In this document: piece after piece, positions 29,533-37,952 of the stretch
Layout: the number at the start of each line of letters is the position of its first letter
How positions within the stretch are numbered: position 1 is the stretch's first letter
Assembly (NCBI GenBank): GCA_004293265.1
Contig: RDXZ01000012.1
Location: forward strand, 1-54,637
DNA from: Bacteroidota bacterium
GTDB taxonomy: Bacteria > Bacteroidota > Bacteroidia > Cytophagales > Microscillaceae
Direction: 5' to 3'
Length of the DNA: 54,637 nucleotides
Notes under the pieces: generated by a model
What the model saw: only the letters and a program-made list of their open reading frames with translations
What the model was told of the DNA's origin: nothing
Databases searched by the model: none
Translations under genes and position numbers: made by a program

Positions 29533-31392
29533 ATGCTTACGAAAGACTTTTATAGCACCATAAATGCTGAACTTGATATACTTCTTACAAAATACAAAGA
29601 GGATAAACTCATCAAAAAACATATAAAATCTATTGACAATCAAAAGTCTTATGTGCTATTGATTTGGTTTCTTGGTTTTTATGGCAGAATATCTAATTAT
29701 TCGAATTTTATCACAGATGGCAATGATGATAGTTCTTGTGATATTGTATTTGATAACCTTGATAATCAAGGAAATAAGGTTTTTTATGTTGTTCAATCAA
29801 AATGGAACAATGCAGATAATTCTGAAAAAGAAACCAATAAAGATGAAATTTTAAAAGCCTTGAATGACTTTGAAACGATTTTGCGTGGAGAAAAGAAAAG
29901 TGTAAATGAAAAATTAAAATCTAAATTAGAAGAACTTGATTTGCATTTAAAGGCAAATGGCGAGGTAAAATTTATATTCCTTTCCCTTTCACAATACAAA
30001 GGTGGAGCAGACGAAAATATTGAAGCATTTAGAAACAATGATGTCAAAACTAAATTTGAAGTAATTGATATTAACCGAATGAGAGTAGATTATATTGATA
30101 GAAAATACAAAAAAATTGACCCTATCAATCCTCTTGAAACTTATCAAAATCCAGAAGAAAGTCCTATTACTATCGAAATAATACAAAAAGGTGGTAGTAT
30201 AAAAATTGAAAAACCTTATGAGGCTTATGTATTTTTGCTTCGTCCTAAATCAATTTGGGAACTTTTTAAAACCTATAATTTTTCTCTTTTCTTCAAAAAT
30301 GTTCGCAATCCATTGTTGCAATCACAATTTAATGATGATATAAAAAAAACAGCCCTTGAAGAATCCAATCTTTTTTGGTATTATAATAATGGTATAACAG
30401 CCATTACTTCTTTACTTCCCGAAATTGGTAAAAAAGCCGAAAAAATTACTGTAACAGGTTTGCAAATTATCAACGGCTCGCAAACAGTTTATTCTATTTA
30501 TCACGCTTACGAAAATGCTTCACCAACTCAAAGATTGAAAATGGATAACGAGGCATTTATTACTTTTCGTTTATTGAAATCAGGTGGAAAATCTTTTGAT
30601 TTGAATGTTACGAGATATACAAATTCGCAAAATCCTGTTCAAGATAGAGATTTTTGTGCCAATGACGATATACAAGTAGCCTTACAAAATGCGTCCTATC
30701 AAACAAATATTTGGTATGAAAAAAGACGAGGAGAATTTAGAGAAGTACCAAGTGGTATTAAGAAAATACCAAGTTTTATTTTTGCCAATGTATATTTAGC
30801 CTATCATTTGCAAGACCCCGTAAGTGTGCTAAAGAATTATACACAACGATTTAAAACAGATAAAGACTTAAATTTTATTTCTCACAAAGACCATAAAGAT
30901 GGTTTGTACGAAAAAATATTTAATAAAAATACTTCTTATGAAGATATGCTTTGTGCTTTTTACATCTTTAATATTATTGATGATACTACACCTTTTTCTT
31001 ATGAAGATACATTCAAGACTAATTTATACCACTTATTAGCATTATTTAAAATTGCTTTTACAAAATATTTAAAAGCAAAATATGATGATAAAATAAATGT
31101 TAATAAACAAATTATTAAGATTTATGAAAAAGGAGAAAAAGAAATCTTTGTTAAAACATTCAAATTTCTCAACCAATTTGTTGACCGACAAATTGAAGCA
31201 GCAAATGATAAAGAAAAGACAGATGAGCGTATGCTCAAATTTTTATTCACTTTATCTCACTACCAAAAAATCTGTGATACATTAGAAGATACAGAAATAT
31301 CTACAAAAGATATTGAAGATATTGTATTAAAAGATGATGATGAGATAATAGAGGGCGATAAAGATAACGAACCAACCATTGAGCAAGAATAA
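29533..31392 (+). CDS. AIPR-family (abortive infection phage resistance) protein
   Basis: N-terminal CDIVFDN...VFYVVQSKWN nuclease-like motif; central NLFWYYNNGITAI and LQIINGSQTVYSIYHA typical of AIPR. Confidence 0.8.
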   Translation: MLTKDFYSTINAELDILLTKYKEDKLIKKHIKSIDNQKSYVLLIWFLGFYGRISNYSNFITDGNDDSSCDIVFDNLDNQGNKVFYVVQSKWNNADNSEKETNKDEILKALNDFETILRGEKKSVNEKLKSKLEELDLHLKANGEVKFIFLSLSQYKGGADENIEAFRNNDVKTKFEVIDINRMRVDYIDRKYKKIDPINPLETYQNPEESPITIEIIQKGGSIKIEKPYEAYVFLLRPKSIWELFKTYNFSLFFKNVRNPLLQSQFNDDIKKTALEESNLFWYYNNGITAITSLLPEIGKKAEKITVTGLQIINGSQTVYSIYHAYENASPTQRLKMDNEAFITFRLLKSGGKSFDLNVTRYTNSQNPVQDRDFCANDDIQVALQNASYQTNIWYEKRRGEFREVPSGIKKIPSFIFANVYLAYHLQDPVSVLKNYTQRFKTDKDLNFISHKDHKDGLYEKIFNKNTSYEDMLCAFYIFNIIDDTTPFSYEDTFKTNLYHLLALFKIAFTKYLKAKYDDKINVNKQIIKIYEKGEKEIFVKTFKFLNQFVDRQIEAANDKEKTDERMLKFLFTLSHYQKICDTLEDTEISTKDIEDIVLKDDDEIIEGDKDNEPTIEQE

Positions 31393-32700: not shown

Positions 32701-32731
32701 TTGTAGTTTTCAATAATTTTTATTATCTTTG
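32701..32731 (+). promoter_or_regulatory. Bacteroidota-type promoter
   Basis: TTG at 32701-32703, 20-nt spacer, TATCTTTG at 32724-32731. Confidence 0.65.
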
Positions 32732-32737
32732 CAGAAT

Positions 32738-32784
32738 ATTTACCAAAAAAATATGCCGTTTGTAAGGCATAAAAAATGTAAATC
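32738..32784 (+). repeat. 47-bp direct repeat (thrS-leader-like), copy 1
   Basis: ATTTACCAAAAAAATATGCCGTTTGTAAGGCATAAAAAATGTAAATC, identical to 35961-36007. Confidence 0.95.
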
Positions 32785-32808
32785 ATATTATATTTAGGCT
32801 ATTTTATT

Positions 32809-33684
32809 ATGTTTCCAAAAAAAATTTTTGAGGATATCAAAAGCTCTGATTTCCAAAAACACAATAAAAAACAAGTTACAGAAGATTTTGTAACTGAAAA
32901 TTTTAAGGCTTGTTTTTGGAATGTATATAGACCTTTCAATGATACAGGAATTGATTTAATTGCGACTAAAAAAGTTTGCCCTAATAATCATACACAATTT
33001 GATGACAATACAATTTCTATCAAAAAATGCCCAAACTGCCATAAGGAATTCATCAATATCGAAAGATTTATTCAAGTAAAAACAAGAGAAATCAAAGGTG
33101 AGGAGGGTGAAAGTATGTTTTTTGGTTATACACTTAAATCAAAGGATTTTAGAACAGACCCTCGACACATTTTTTTATTCTATTCTGATGCAACTAATGA
33201 TTTTTTAATTGTTCCTATGTTTGATTATTTGCAATTTTTTCATCAAAAAGAAATTGGTAAATCTCATTTTGGTACACCTTCTTTTAGAATAGGAAATAAT
33301 AAATTAAACAGTTTGAAACGTAATGAAAAAAGTATTTGGGAATGGAAAGGCAGAGAAACATACTCTTTTATGCAATTTTTGAACGAGAAAGGAATGGAAT
33401 TGATTGTAAACCCAAACTATGATTTAAAATTAAATGATTACATTTCAAAAATTACAGAAATGAAATTTGATTTATTTTATGATTATTCAGCAGGAAGGCA
33501 GATAGACAAATCACAACAAGAAGTTTTTAATCAAATACTACAAAAACAAGTCAAGCAGAATTTGAAAGATATTGCTAAAAAAAGAGTAGAACGAAGAAAG
33601 AAATTAATAAAAACTATTGATAATCAATTAGTTATAAGTATTAAAAAATATTTTGAAAAATTTAAAAACTTTGATTTTCAATGA
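32809..33684 (+). CDS. Putative restriction endonuclease, PD-(D/E)XK-like
   Basis: NVYRPFNDTGIDLIAT...FIQVKTREI (D...QVK arrangement) with CPNNH...CPNCH zinc ribbon between. Confidence 0.65.
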   Translation: MFPKKIFEDIKSSDFQKHNKKQVTEDFVTENFKACFWNVYRPFNDTGIDLIATKKVCPNNHTQFDDNTISIKKCPNCHKEFINIERFIQVKTREIKGEEGESMFFGYTLKSKDFRTDPRHIFLFYSDATNDFLIVPMFDYLQFFHQKEIGKSHFGTPSFRIGNNKLNSLKRNEKSIWEWKGRETYSFMQFLNEKGMELIVNPNYDLKLNDYISKITEMKFDLFYDYSAGRQIDKSQQEVFNQILQKQVKQNLKDIAKKRVERRKKLIKTIDNQLVISIKKYFEKFKNFDFQ

Positions 33685-34325
33685 GAGTTGATATAAAATC
33701 TGTTGCCTACGCTTTCGCTTCCCAAGATGTAAATGTATATTTTCCTGATGGTGAAGAAGAATGTTTTATGATTGAGAAATTGGTTTGTACCAAATGTGAT
33801 AATTTTTGGCATACATCTTTGATGGAATGTTATTTTTGTGGCGAACTGAATTATTATTTGTATGAATGTACGAATTGTAAAAGTAAATATTCTATCACAA
33901 ATAGTTCAAAAAATTGCTTAAATTGTCAAGAAAACAATAGTTTGATAAAAGCCTGTATCAATGAAAAATGCCCTACTAATCAAAATGAACAACTAAAAGA
34001 ATTAAATAAAAAAGAAAAAGGAGTTTTTGATTTAACATCTTCTTTGAATTTATCTTTGATGTACTGCATTAATTGCGGTTGCCCTGAAAATAAATATAAA
34101 ACATTCAGAATATTTGTTTATAATGATGAAATTGAAAATAATTTTGAGGTTTTTATGAAACGAAATGAACCATTTTTAAACATTAATGATATTATTGTTT
34201 TCAAAAAACACAATGGAATTTTGAAATATAATTTTTCTAAAATAAAAAATACCCCTCTCACACTTCCAACTGAGTATAAATTCAAAGAAATAGCCAATTT
34301 AGTCGAGAATATATTAAAATTGTAA
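33681..34325 (+). CDS. Multi-zinc-ribbon hypothetical protein
   Basis: ATGA overlap with upstream gene; CTKC...CYFC, CTNC...CLNC, CINCGC motifs. Confidence 0.65.
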   Translation: MRVDIKSVAYAFASQDVNVYFPDGEEECFMIEKLVCTKCDNFWHTSLMECYFCGELNYYLYECTNCKSKYSITNSSKNCLNCQENNSLIKACINEKCPTNQNEQLKELNKKEKGVFDLTSSLNLSLMYCINCGCPENKYKTFRIFVYNDEIENNFEVFMKRNEPFLNINDIIVFKKHNGILKYNFSKIKNTPLTLPTEYKFKEIANLVENILKL

Positions 34326-34408
34326 CTTTTTTTTGCTAAAATTTGGATATTTTATTTTTATAATTTAATTTTGAAACAAATTGAAACATTTTAAAATAAT
34401 TAATAAAA

Positions 34409-35935
34409 ATGGAAGAAAAATTAGCAAAAGAAAAAGAGGTTTTAGATTATCTCAACATCTCACGAACAACGCTTTGGCGATTAAAAAAAGAAGGTTTACC
34501 TATTGTTAAAGTAGGAAATTCATATCGTTATGAGATTGAAGACGTGAAAGAATGGATTGCAAAAGAAGAAAATGTAACCTACCAAAATCAAAATAAAATA
34601 ATTAGTACTGAAATTCAAAACGACACAGAAAACCCAATTTTAACGCATATTTCAGGAGAAAATGAAACAGATTTAAACAATAATGAACGTATTATTCAGG
34701 AATATCCTATTTCATTGGTTTATCTTTTAGAACATAATCAAAAATATCTTCAAAAAATATTTGATGCTGAAACAATAAAAAAACTCGCTCAAAGCCTTGC
34801 AAATTATGACGATTTGGGCTTAACCAATGCTAAAATAGTCAAAATTTTTAGTTTTGAATATTTAAAATTATTGAAAGAACAACATCAACAAGAAACAAGA
34901 CCTGATACATATAATCCTGATTTACAGCGATTTATCAATCAACCTAATAATGCTATTCGCGTTGTTTGGGGAAATTGCTTGGATATTTTGAAACAAATGG
35001 AAAGCGAAAGCATACAACTGATGGTTACTTCTCCGCCTTATTACAATGCTCGTGATTATTCGCAATGGGAAAATATAGATTTATATTTAGAAGATATGCG
35101 ACAAATTATTCGTGAGAGTTGGCGAGTTTTGGATAATCACAGGGTTTGGGTTTGGAATGTAGGCGATATTTTTGATAACGATAGAAAAGTTACAAAATCA
35201 GTGTGGGGTAAAAGGCGTATTCCTTTGGGTGCTTATTTTATTAAAATTTTTGAAGAAGAAGGTTTTGAATTTGTTGATGATATTATGTGGGATAAAGGTG
35301 AAGTCGAAAGCAAACGTTTTATGAATGGTGGAATGGATTATCCATTTTATCAATATCCAATGAATTGCTATGAACATATTTTAATTTTTCATAAACATAG
35401 ATTGGATAACACCAAAATTCCCTGCCCTGTTTGTGGCTCTTTGAATGTAAATGGCAATACACAATCTGAAATAGGTGTGCAAAGTTGGGAGTGTAAAAAT
35501 GAAAAATGTTTTATTCGTAGCCCCAATAATAGAGGCAAACGATTTTCGTTACGTACTAATATGATGCAATATTGGTTTGATGAAGATAAAAATAACGTGA
35601 TAGAAAAATCGGTACAAAATAAATGGCGTAGAGATATTGTTCCTTTCTCACCTGTGATTAAAGTTAATAGCAAAGGCGAAAATATTTTAGGGCATTCTGC
35701 TCCTTTTCCCGAAGATATACCTGAAATGGCTATCAAATATTTTAGTTATGCAGGCGAAAAAGTTCTTGACCCTTTTGGAGGAAGTTTTACTACACCTATT
35801 GTAGCCCGAAATTTACATAGAACAGGTATTGGTATCGAACTAAATAAAGAAATGTATCGTGAGGCTATTTTACGCAAAATACGAAGCAGCCAAAATTTAT
35901 TTGGCAGTGAAGGAAATTTATTCGATGAATTTTAA
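34409..35935 (+). CDS. DNA methyltransferase (N4/N6, beta-class order) with N-terminal HTH
   Basis: HTH KEVLDYLNISRTTLWRLKKEGLPIVKVGNSYRYEIEDVKEWI; TSPPYYNARDYSQW, then DPFGGSFTTPIVARNLHRTGIGIEL; inserted CPVC...CKNEKC zinc ribbon. Confidence 0.88.
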   Translation: MEEKLAKEKEVLDYLNISRTTLWRLKKEGLPIVKVGNSYRYEIEDVKEWIAKEENVTYQNQNKIISTEIQNDTENPILTHISGENETDLNNNERIIQEYPISLVYLLEHNQKYLQKIFDAETIKKLAQSLANYDDLGLTNAKIVKIFSFEYLKLLKEQHQQETRPDTYNPDLQRFINQPNNAIRVVWGNCLDILKQMESESIQLMVTSPPYYNARDYSQWENIDLYLEDMRQIIRESWRVLDNHRVWVWNVGDIFDNDRKVTKSVWGKRRIPLGAYFIKIFEEEGFEFVDDIMWDKGEVESKRFMNGGMDYPFYQYPMNCYEHILIFHKHRLDNTKIPCPVCGSLNVNGNTQSEIGVQSWECKNEKCFIRSPNNRGKRFSLRTNMMQYWFDEDKNNVIEKSVQNKWRRDIVPFSPVIKVNSKGENILGHSAPFPEDIPEMAIKYFSYAGEKVLDPFGGSFTTPIVARNLHRTGIGIELNKEMYREAILRKIRSSQNLFGSEGNLFDEF

Positions 35936-35960
35936 ATAAAAATTACTATCTTTGCAAATC

Positions 35961-36007
35961 ATTTACCAAAAAAATATGCCGTTTGTAAGGCATAAAAAAT
36001 GTAAATC
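35961..36007 (+). repeat. 47-bp direct repeat, copy 2 (thrS leader)
   Basis: Identical to 32738-32784; preceded by TATCTTTG (35947-35954). Confidence 0.95.
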
Positions 36008-36017
36008 TTTATTTTTT

Positions 36018-37952
36018 ATGAGCAATATCAAAATCACATTCCCTGACGGAAACATTCGTGAGTATTCCAAAGGAACAACAAGCATCGAAATCGCACAAAG
36101 TATTAGCGAAGGTCTGATGAGAAATGTATTGGCTGCCAAAGTCAATAACGAAATTTGGGACGCAACACGCCCTATCGACAATGATGCACATCTCCAACTT
36201 TTAACTTGGAAAGATACAGAAGGAAAAAATACTTTCTGGCATTCTTCTGCACATTTATTGGCTGAAGCCGTCGAAAGTTTATTTCCAAAAACAAAATTTG
36301 GTATCGGACCTGCTATCGAAACAGGTTTTTATTATGATATTGAATTGCCTGAAGGCAAAATGCTTTCACAAGACGATTTTATCAATATCGAGAAAAAAAT
36401 GCTCGAATTAGCCCGCAACAAAAGCGAATACATACGCAAAAGTGTGAGCAAAAAAGATGCTATCGATTATTTTACTGAAAAAGGCGATAATTATAAACTC
36501 GAATTATTAGAAGGACTCGAAGATGGAAAAATTACTTTTTATACACAAGGTAATTTTACGGATTTGTGTCGTGGAGCGCATATTCCACACACAGGCTTTA
36601 TCAAAGCAGTCAAAATTATGAATCTCGCAGGTGCGTATTGGCGTGGAGATGTTACACGCAAGCAATTGACTCGTTTGTATGCTGTAACTTTTCCACAAGA
36701 AAAAGAACTCAAAGAATATTTGACTTTATTAGAAGAAGCCAAAAAAAGAGACCACCGAAAATTAGGAAAAGAATTAGAATTGTTTACTTTTTCTGAAAAA
36801 GTAGGGGCGGGCTTGCCTTTGTGGTTGCCAAAAGGAACACTTTTGAGAGAAAGATTAGAACAATTTTTGAGAAAAGCACAAGTAAAAGCAGGTTATTCGC
36901 CTGTGATTACGCCTCATATTGGTTCAAAAAAATTATATATTACATCAGGACATTGGGAAAAATACGGCAAAGATTCGTTTCAACCTATTCATACTCCTGA
37001 AGAAAATGAAGAATTTTTACTAAAACCAATGAATTGTCCGCATCATTGCGAAATTTATGCTTCAAAACCTCGTTCTTACAAAGAATTACCAATACGTTTG
37101 GCAGAATTTGGAACGGTTTATCGTTATGAGCAAAGTGGAGAATTGCATGGTTTGACAAGAGTGAGAGGTTTTACGCAAGATGATGCACATATTTTTTGTC
37201 GACCTGACCAAGTAAAAGATGAATTTGGAAAAGTAATTGATTTGGTTTTGTTGGTATTTCGTTCATTGGGTTTTGAAGATTATACTGCTCAAATTTCATT
37301 GAGAGACCCTGAAAATAAAACTAAATATTTTGGTAAAGATGAAGATTGGCACAAAGCCGAAAGTGCTATCGTTGAAATTGCCAATGAAAAAGGATTGAAA
37401 ACCGTTACAGAATTGGGCGAAGCCGCTTTTTATGGTCCAAAATTAGATTTTATGGTCAAAGATGCCTTAGGTAGAAAATGGCAATTAGGCACTGTGCAGT
37501 TAGATTATCAATTACCTGACCGTTTCGAATTGGAATATATTGGTGCTGATAATCAAAAACATAGACCTGTAATGATTCATCGCGCTCCTTTTGGTTCGTT
37601 GGAACGATTTATTGCAGTGCTAACAGAACATTGTGCAGGAAATTTTCCTTTGTGGTTGGCTCCCGAACAAATTGCAGTATTGCCTGTTTCTGAAAAATAT
37701 CACGAATATGCCAAAAAAATTCATACTATTTTAGAAGAATTAGATATTCGTGGAAGTTTAGATGAAAGGGACGAAAAAATCCAACGAAAAATAAGAGATG
37801 CAGAAGTTAAAAAAATTCCTTTTATGCTCATTGTGGGTGAAAAAGAACAAGAATCTAATACAATTTCTGTGCGTGAACACGGGCAAGGCGATAAAGGTGC
37901 ATGCAGTTTAGAAGATTTTGTAACTTTATTTAAAGAAAAAATCAAAGCATAA
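36018..37952 (+). CDS. thrS: Threonine--tRNA ligase
   Basis: [16 protein letters not shown] (TGS), [62 protein letters not shown]-track start 35952 extends into the leader. Confidence 0.96.

Follow-up and report, generated by a model that had tools for sequence, protein, structure and literature searches.

A candidate restriction-modification cassette with a putatively self-controlling methyltransferase at the thrS gene of a Cytophagales bacterium

Gene content of the locus

The window, i.e. the whole 54,637-nucleotide stretch of DNA analysed, contains a module of three consecutive genes, here called R, Z and M, and thrS is located directly downstream of M (Table 1). The end of R and the start of Z overlap by 4 nt (ATGA, 33681-33684). 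The three open reading frames, this overlap and the motifs GIDLIAT and FIQVKTRE in R, and TSPPYY and DPFGGSFT in M, were found exactly as described in an earlier sequence-only reading of the locus, whereas the 47-bp repeat flanking the module and the candidate M operator are features beyond it.

Between the genome of the window and that of a second species of the same genus, a Cytophagales MAG (G001, contig JAAFJG010000101), dN/dS values of 0.01-0.22 were obtained for Z, M and both parts of R, and R, Z and M are therefore real genes under purifying selection. In G001 (L023 6074-6855 and 7675-8880; L024 10994-11366), R is frameshifted and the two pieces of M lie at the ends of different contigs. 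The module of this one of the two close relatives may thus be inactive or misassembled.

The promoter consensus of Bacteroidota is TTG-N19-21-TAnnTTTG, and candidate promoters were read from the sequence upstream of R and upstream of M. No small HTH gene, as a separate C gene would be, was found among the open reading frames between 32160 and 37952. A gene for an AIPR protein of the abortive-infection type (Pfam 1.3e-38; PADLOC AbiU 1.5e-29) is located at 29533-31392, 1.4 kb upstream of the module. It was rejected as a module member because a BON-LysM gene and one other gene, both unrelated, intervene.

Table 1. Features of the R-Z-M module and its surroundings, in positions of the window.
Feature	Position	Strand	Description
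R	32809-33684	+	291 aa; predicted PD-(D/E)XK nuclease ORF
Z	33681-34325	+	214 aa; Cys-rich ORF
M	34409-35935	+	508 aa; predicted beta-class amino-methyltransferase ORF
thrS, threonyl-tRNA synthetase	36018-37952	+	ORF; first 200 aa match family-wide
Candidate R-Z promoter	32701-32731	+	-33 TTG 32701-32703, 20 nt, -7 TATCTTTG 32724-32731; read from sequence
Upstream leader copy	32738-32784	+	47-bp perfect direct repeat; hairpin TATGCC-GTTTGTAA-GGCATA 32752-32771
Candidate M promoter	34342-34373	+	TTTG 34342-34345, 20 nt, TAATTTTG 34366-34373; read from sequence
Candidate M operator	34373-34387	+	direct repeat GAAAC-AAATT-GAAAC, 10-bp period
Downstream leader copy (thrS leader)	35961-36007	+	hairpin 35975-35994; -7 box TATCTTTG 35947-35954

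The nuclease and the methyltransferase

Searches of Pfam, PADLOC and other family libraries gave no match for R or for Z, and weak matches to Pfam DUF4365 were seen in three relatives of R. An alignment of 28 R relatives showed E25 and D49 to be near-invariant and Q89, V90 and K91 to be invariant, and E25, D49 and Q89-x-K91 are the candidate catalytic residues. Between D49 and the QVK strand sits a candidate zinc knuckle (C57/H61/C74/C77), and Cys pairs occupy the same interval in the aligned relatives. AlphaFold predicted an alpha-beta-beta-beta core in residues 20-90 with a pLDDT of about 80 (62.6 overall); the C-terminal part of R is helical. The top Foldseek matches in the PDB were the SPARDA nuclease, I-Ssp6803I, Hjc and EcoRV, all PD-(D/E)XK enzymes, and since a single match had an E-value below 0.001 this support is at the level of the fold only. 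With the conserved E...D...QxK placed on a matching core, R is by prediction a PD-(D/E)XK nuclease. The sequence-only reading had called this gene nuclease-like and had named structure prediction as the check on which the assignment could fall; the predicted fold upheld it.

M matched N6_N4_Mtase of Pfam (E = 1.4e-32) and MTase_II of PADLOC (1.3e-86). TSPPYY precedes DPFGGSFT, which is the motif order of beta-class enzymes of the N6/N4 family and not that of the cytosine-5 class. On these motifs M is an amino-methyltransferase, of a kind that motifs alone do not split into N4-cytosine and N6-adenine enzymes. Two additions to the methyltransferase, both anticipated by the sequence-only reading, were confirmed: an N-terminal HTH_17 domain (aa 9-52, 34433-34564, E = 5.9e-8), and an inserted Cys4 zinc ribbon (aa 339-367, 35423-35509) whose cysteines C339, C342, C362 and C367 are invariant across three aligned M proteins.

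A scan of 85,488 genomes for homologues of M gave 80 loci, of which 64 had an R-family nuclease close to M, in most cases in the same orientation and often with an overlap of a few bases. One M-R pair with a 4-nt M/R overlap was found in another family of the same order (G023). Owing to this constant company of the nuclease, the M family is regarded as one of restriction-modification methyltransferases. R, M and Z would together constitute a Type II-like restriction-modification system, as the sequence-only reading had proposed, and the gene association behind this assignment is well supported.

In three loci from marine and other relatives (L034 7374-8513, L045 7230-8282 and L055 7225-8325) the M relative is partnered by a convergent gene in place of the PD-(D/E)XK nuclease; from its sequence this gene appears HNH-like. 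No relatives of R or M were detected in the plasmids searched, nor of Z or R in the viral contigs searched. A distant M homologue, 48% identical across 59% of the query, was present in the unannotated Staphylococcus phage record MZ417323 (12647-13525), and on a phage-like IMG/VR contig (L161, 3992-6391) an HNH-like gene follows an M homologue whose HTH has diverged.

Duplication of the thrS leader

The module is flanked by the two copies of a 47-bp perfect direct repeat, the downstream one of which is the leader of thrS. These are the only two copies in the whole genome, and a genome-wide repeat element was accordingly rejected. The promoter and leader of R align with those of thrS at 90% over 78 nt. 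In G001, too, R is preceded by a duplicate of that genome's thrS leader, which extends into the first codons of thrS (ATGAGTAATAT), from which it follows that the upstream copy derives from thrS; the 3′-end of M is in that genome also directly upstream of thrS. The copies are identical within each genome (47/47 in the genome of the window and about 80 nt in G001) and different between the genomes, and dS between the two species is 0.6-0.9. Such a pattern would result either if the same target had recently received two insertions or if gene conversion were continuing.

Restriction-modification systems are known to insert with a long duplication of the target (Nobusato 2000 and Furuta 2010, as cited in PMC3874152). 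That the flanking repeat here is no insertion scar, and arose by ordinary recombination or by gene conversion after a single ancient duplication, is a serious possibility which falls short of being probable. The cassette adjoins thrS in both species, the identity of the copies within genomes fits conversion as well as it fits two insertions, and no empty site with a matching left flank was found, the left flank being different in all three genomes of the genus. Against this, direct repeats which may be insertion scars also flank related M-R modules in three of 61 loci, namely L035 (91 nt), L060 (55 nt) and L096 (23 nt).

A Thr-anticodon hairpin in thrS leaders

The hairpin within the repeat is native to thrS, as a Thr-anticodon loop is present in thrS leaders across the order. 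By a strict rule (stem of at least 5 bp, 8-nt loop NNU(U/C)GURN) the hairpin was found in 20 of 65 Bacteroidota thrS leaders, compared to a mean of 0.46 and a maximum of 4 in shuffled sequences. The loop triplet was UGU in 18 leaders and CGU in two, both of which are Thr anticodons, and any other triplet reached at most 4. The stems vary freely with pairing kept. Besides the thrS leader of the window, the hairpin was seen among the thrS leaders L118-L156 and L208-L234, and it is carried by those of many Cytophagales. The repeat was rejected as a known Rfam element, the only matches being snoRNA-like and below threshold, and no paper on a Cytophagales thrS hairpin was found in the literature search.

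The thrS operator of E. coli contains an anticodon-like hairpin to which ThrRS, the product of the same mRNA, binds (as referenced in PMC6542539). The conserved loop suggests that the leader hairpin described here is probably also a ThrRS autoregulatory operator. It is conceivable, and on present evidence rather unlikely, that R-Z has come under the same feedback: free ThrRS would hold translation of R-Z down and uncharged tRNA-Thr would release it, M being set separately by its HTH and the direct-repeat operator. If true, such control would link restriction to amino-acid supply.

A direct repeat at the M promoter

The candidate M operator begins on the last base of the TAATTTTG -7 box, which is conserved in G001, and is the sole strict match to GAAAC-N5-GAAAC within the window. 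Counted on either strand, the strict motif was present at the corresponding position of all seven M genes with a conserved HTH and at none of the 75 without. The chance of a strict motif is at most 0.0005 per region. Fisher's test of the association gave 2.6e-10, a value which is overstated given the relatedness of the loci and the first sighting of the motif in some of them; the count is likewise partly post hoc, and the seven loci belong to one clade. They comprise two Cytophagales, Melioribacter, another Bacteroidota, Myxococcota/Deltaproteobacteria, Nitrospinota and Nitrospirota. A third GAAAC half-site was seen at several of them, and the orientation of the repeat in the two Cytophagales is inverted relative to the other five. 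Wherever a promoter was recognisable among the HTH-bearing M loci, the repeat lay 0-2 nt after the -10/-7 box, and in L028, L030 and L059 it directly follows a clear sigma-70 promoter (TTGACA...TATAAT).

The clade of M genes with the HTH (tree support 100/99) also contains three members without it; L027 and L031, the two for which an upstream region was available, have no GAAAC site either. The repeat was not found upstream of the phage-like L161 M gene with its diverged HTH. A GAAAC regulon was considered and found no support, as the other exact match in the genome is inside a kinase gene.

Head-to-tail binding of direct repeats is known for the MerR-like winged-HTH protein BldC (PMC5859096), and in EcoRII/SsoII-type systems the N-terminal HTH of the modification enzyme represses its own promoter (PMC3874152). 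Because the repeat overlaps the -7 box and tracks the conserved HTH, the comparison supports autorepression of M through its HTH, with the repeat as the predicted operator. The sequence-only reading had suggested that M regulates its own operon in place of a C protein, with 32701-32808 as the target of the HTH. The first part is strengthened by the conserved operator at the M promoter, and the second had the wrong region: the site is at the M promoter and R-Z is located behind a separate, thrS-derived promoter. No description of HTH-based autocontrol in beta-class amino-methyltransferases was found in the literature searched.

The middle gene Z

Twelve cysteines are conserved in Z over three homologues and probably form three zinc sites. 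In the M-locus neighbourhoods, relatives of Z were found, besides the genome of the window, only in G001 and in an alphaproteobacterial single cell (L058); a search of 399 Bacteroidota genomes matched the window's own genome only. Z directly follows R in all three genomes, two of Cytophagales and one alphaproteobacterium, and is confined to one branch of R; the majority of relatives consist of M and R alone. That Z accompanies both other genes, a point raised in the sequence-only reading, is thus not the rule. The M of L058, to which R-Z is convergent, belongs to another clade, without HTH, and since the R-Z order is kept there, R-Z is considered to behave as a unit and to have joined with M genes of different kinds. 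The dN/dS of Z between the genome of the window and G001 is 0.22, which is that of an intact gene under purifying selection.

Comparison of Z with the R-family profile by hhalign gave P = 3e-8 over the N-terminal helix, a hairpin and the first zinc site, a score to which the cysteines contributed much. The Cys-free N-terminus of Z still scored 22.2 against R, compared to at most 18.4 in 250 column shuffles. At the positions aligned to R, Z is without the catalytic Glu and Asp, and it is also without QxK. The similarity is limited to the N-terminus, and the structure prediction of Z had a pLDDT of 34.7. With moderate confidence, Z may be taken as a non-catalytic offshoot of the R nuclease domain which acts as a subunit of R. 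The suggestion made earlier of an accessory or specificity subunit fits a protein that accompanies only this branch of R and resembles it without the catalytic residues, and its subunit role would follow by inference.

Discussion

The locus is probably best explained as a mobile Type II-like restriction-modification cassette, composed of an R-Z nuclease and an HTH-autoregulated M and inserted at thrS. The sequence comparison established the restriction-modification association, the nuclease fold, the association of operator and HTH and the duplication of the leader, and from these we infer complex formation, restriction activity, the direction of regulation and the mechanism of insertion as follows. 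R would cut unmodified DNA, probably in complex with Z, while M would methylate the same site on host DNA. Z, as a zinc-rich and catalytically dead relative of the N-terminal nuclease domain of R, would be translationally coupled to R and could contribute recognition of DNA or supply the other half of the enzyme. The MerR/Xis-like HTH of M would bind the repeat of 10-bp period on its own -7 box, so that M synthesis is turned off once there is enough M; with such self-control no C protein would be needed. On insertion of the cassette before thrS, the promoter and leader of that gene would have been duplicated, leaving R-Z to be transcribed from a thrS-type promoter and thrS with its own copy of the leader.

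An ordinary Type II pair of R and M is a simpler account that we consider improbable. Z would then be carried along neutrally, or would be a small accessory that binds DNA and takes no part in cutting, and the HTH would mainly aid M in finding DNA. By gene content most relatives do work without Z, and related M genes exist without the HTH. Z has nevertheless been kept intact by purifying selection and has stayed directly behind R in three genomes, in one of them next to an M of a different clade, and the presence of the repeat at M promoters coincides exactly with that of the HTH.

Zinc ribbons often bind nucleic acid. Z might for this reason be a specificity subunit that alone reads the site, with R as the non-specific cutter of a split enzyme, and the two-subunit enzyme BslI does have Zn(Cys)4 motifs (PMC4081073). 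We doubt this division of labour to the same degree, as R relatives without Z, such as those of G023 and L096, must recognise their sites themselves. A methylation-dependent or abortive defence, in which M marks DNA and R-Z attacks modified or incoming DNA, is very improbable despite the AIPR/AbiU-like gene upstream, which is separated from the module by two genes, as the constant and often overlapping pairing of M and R is typical of a protective methyltransferase with a restricting nuclease.

The mobile cassette with a self-regulating M would offer a compact and testable alternative to C-protein control, by means of a fused MerR/Xis-like HTH and a conserved candidate operator of 10-bp direct repeats. 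In Z it would also provide a restriction subunit resembling an inactive duplicate of one portion of the nuclease, and in R a restriction gene that follows the regulatory leader belonging to an essential aminoacyl-tRNA synthetase. The hairpin in that leader would add a probable ThrRS operator of Cytophagales, absent from Rfam, with natural UGU and CGU loop variants.

Modification enzymes of the EcoRII/SsoII/Ecl18kI/ScrFI type are cytosine-5 methyltransferases. Their systems share with the present module an N-terminal HTH on M, an operator overlapping its own promoter and no need of a C protein (PMC3874152), and differ in that M is here a beta-class amino-methyltransferase with an HTH_17 domain of the MerR/Xis-like kind and a direct-repeat operator of 10-bp period. 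The two-gene M-R systems of Helicobacter cinaedi (L096), Campylobacter (L085) and G023 have a homologous M and a PD-(D/E)XK R with a Cys-rich insert, often with a 4-nt overlap, but unlike the module are without the HTH on M, without Z and without the GAAAC repeat. BslI and the heterodimeric Type IIT enzymes BbvCI and BspD6I consist of two different subunits, and BslI needs Zn in its Cys4 motifs (PMC4081073). Type IIT enzymes have, by definition, two catalytic sites that differ, whereas Z appears to have none, and the likeness drawn here is one of description.

The MerR-like winged HTH of BldC/Xis similarly acts on directional, head-to-tail direct repeats (PMC5859096), although the BldC repeats read AATTxxxx(C) in place of GAAAC with a 10-bp period, and the HTH is here fused to a methyltransferase. 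Direct repeats of the target flanking the cassette are shared with the restriction-modification insertions with long target duplication, from which, as they are cited in PMC3874152, the present case differs in its target: here this is the promoter of an essential gene together with its regulatory leader, and R thereby acquires the leader. A Thr-anticodon-loop hairpin upstream of thrS is shared with the E. coli thrS operator; compared to that operator, as referenced in PMC6542539, the present element is much smaller, belongs to Bacteroidota, is not in Rfam and has a copy preceding a restriction gene. Each element of the module has thus a known counterpart, and what appears new is their combination, the class of the methyltransferase, the operator of direct repeats and the acquired thrS leader.
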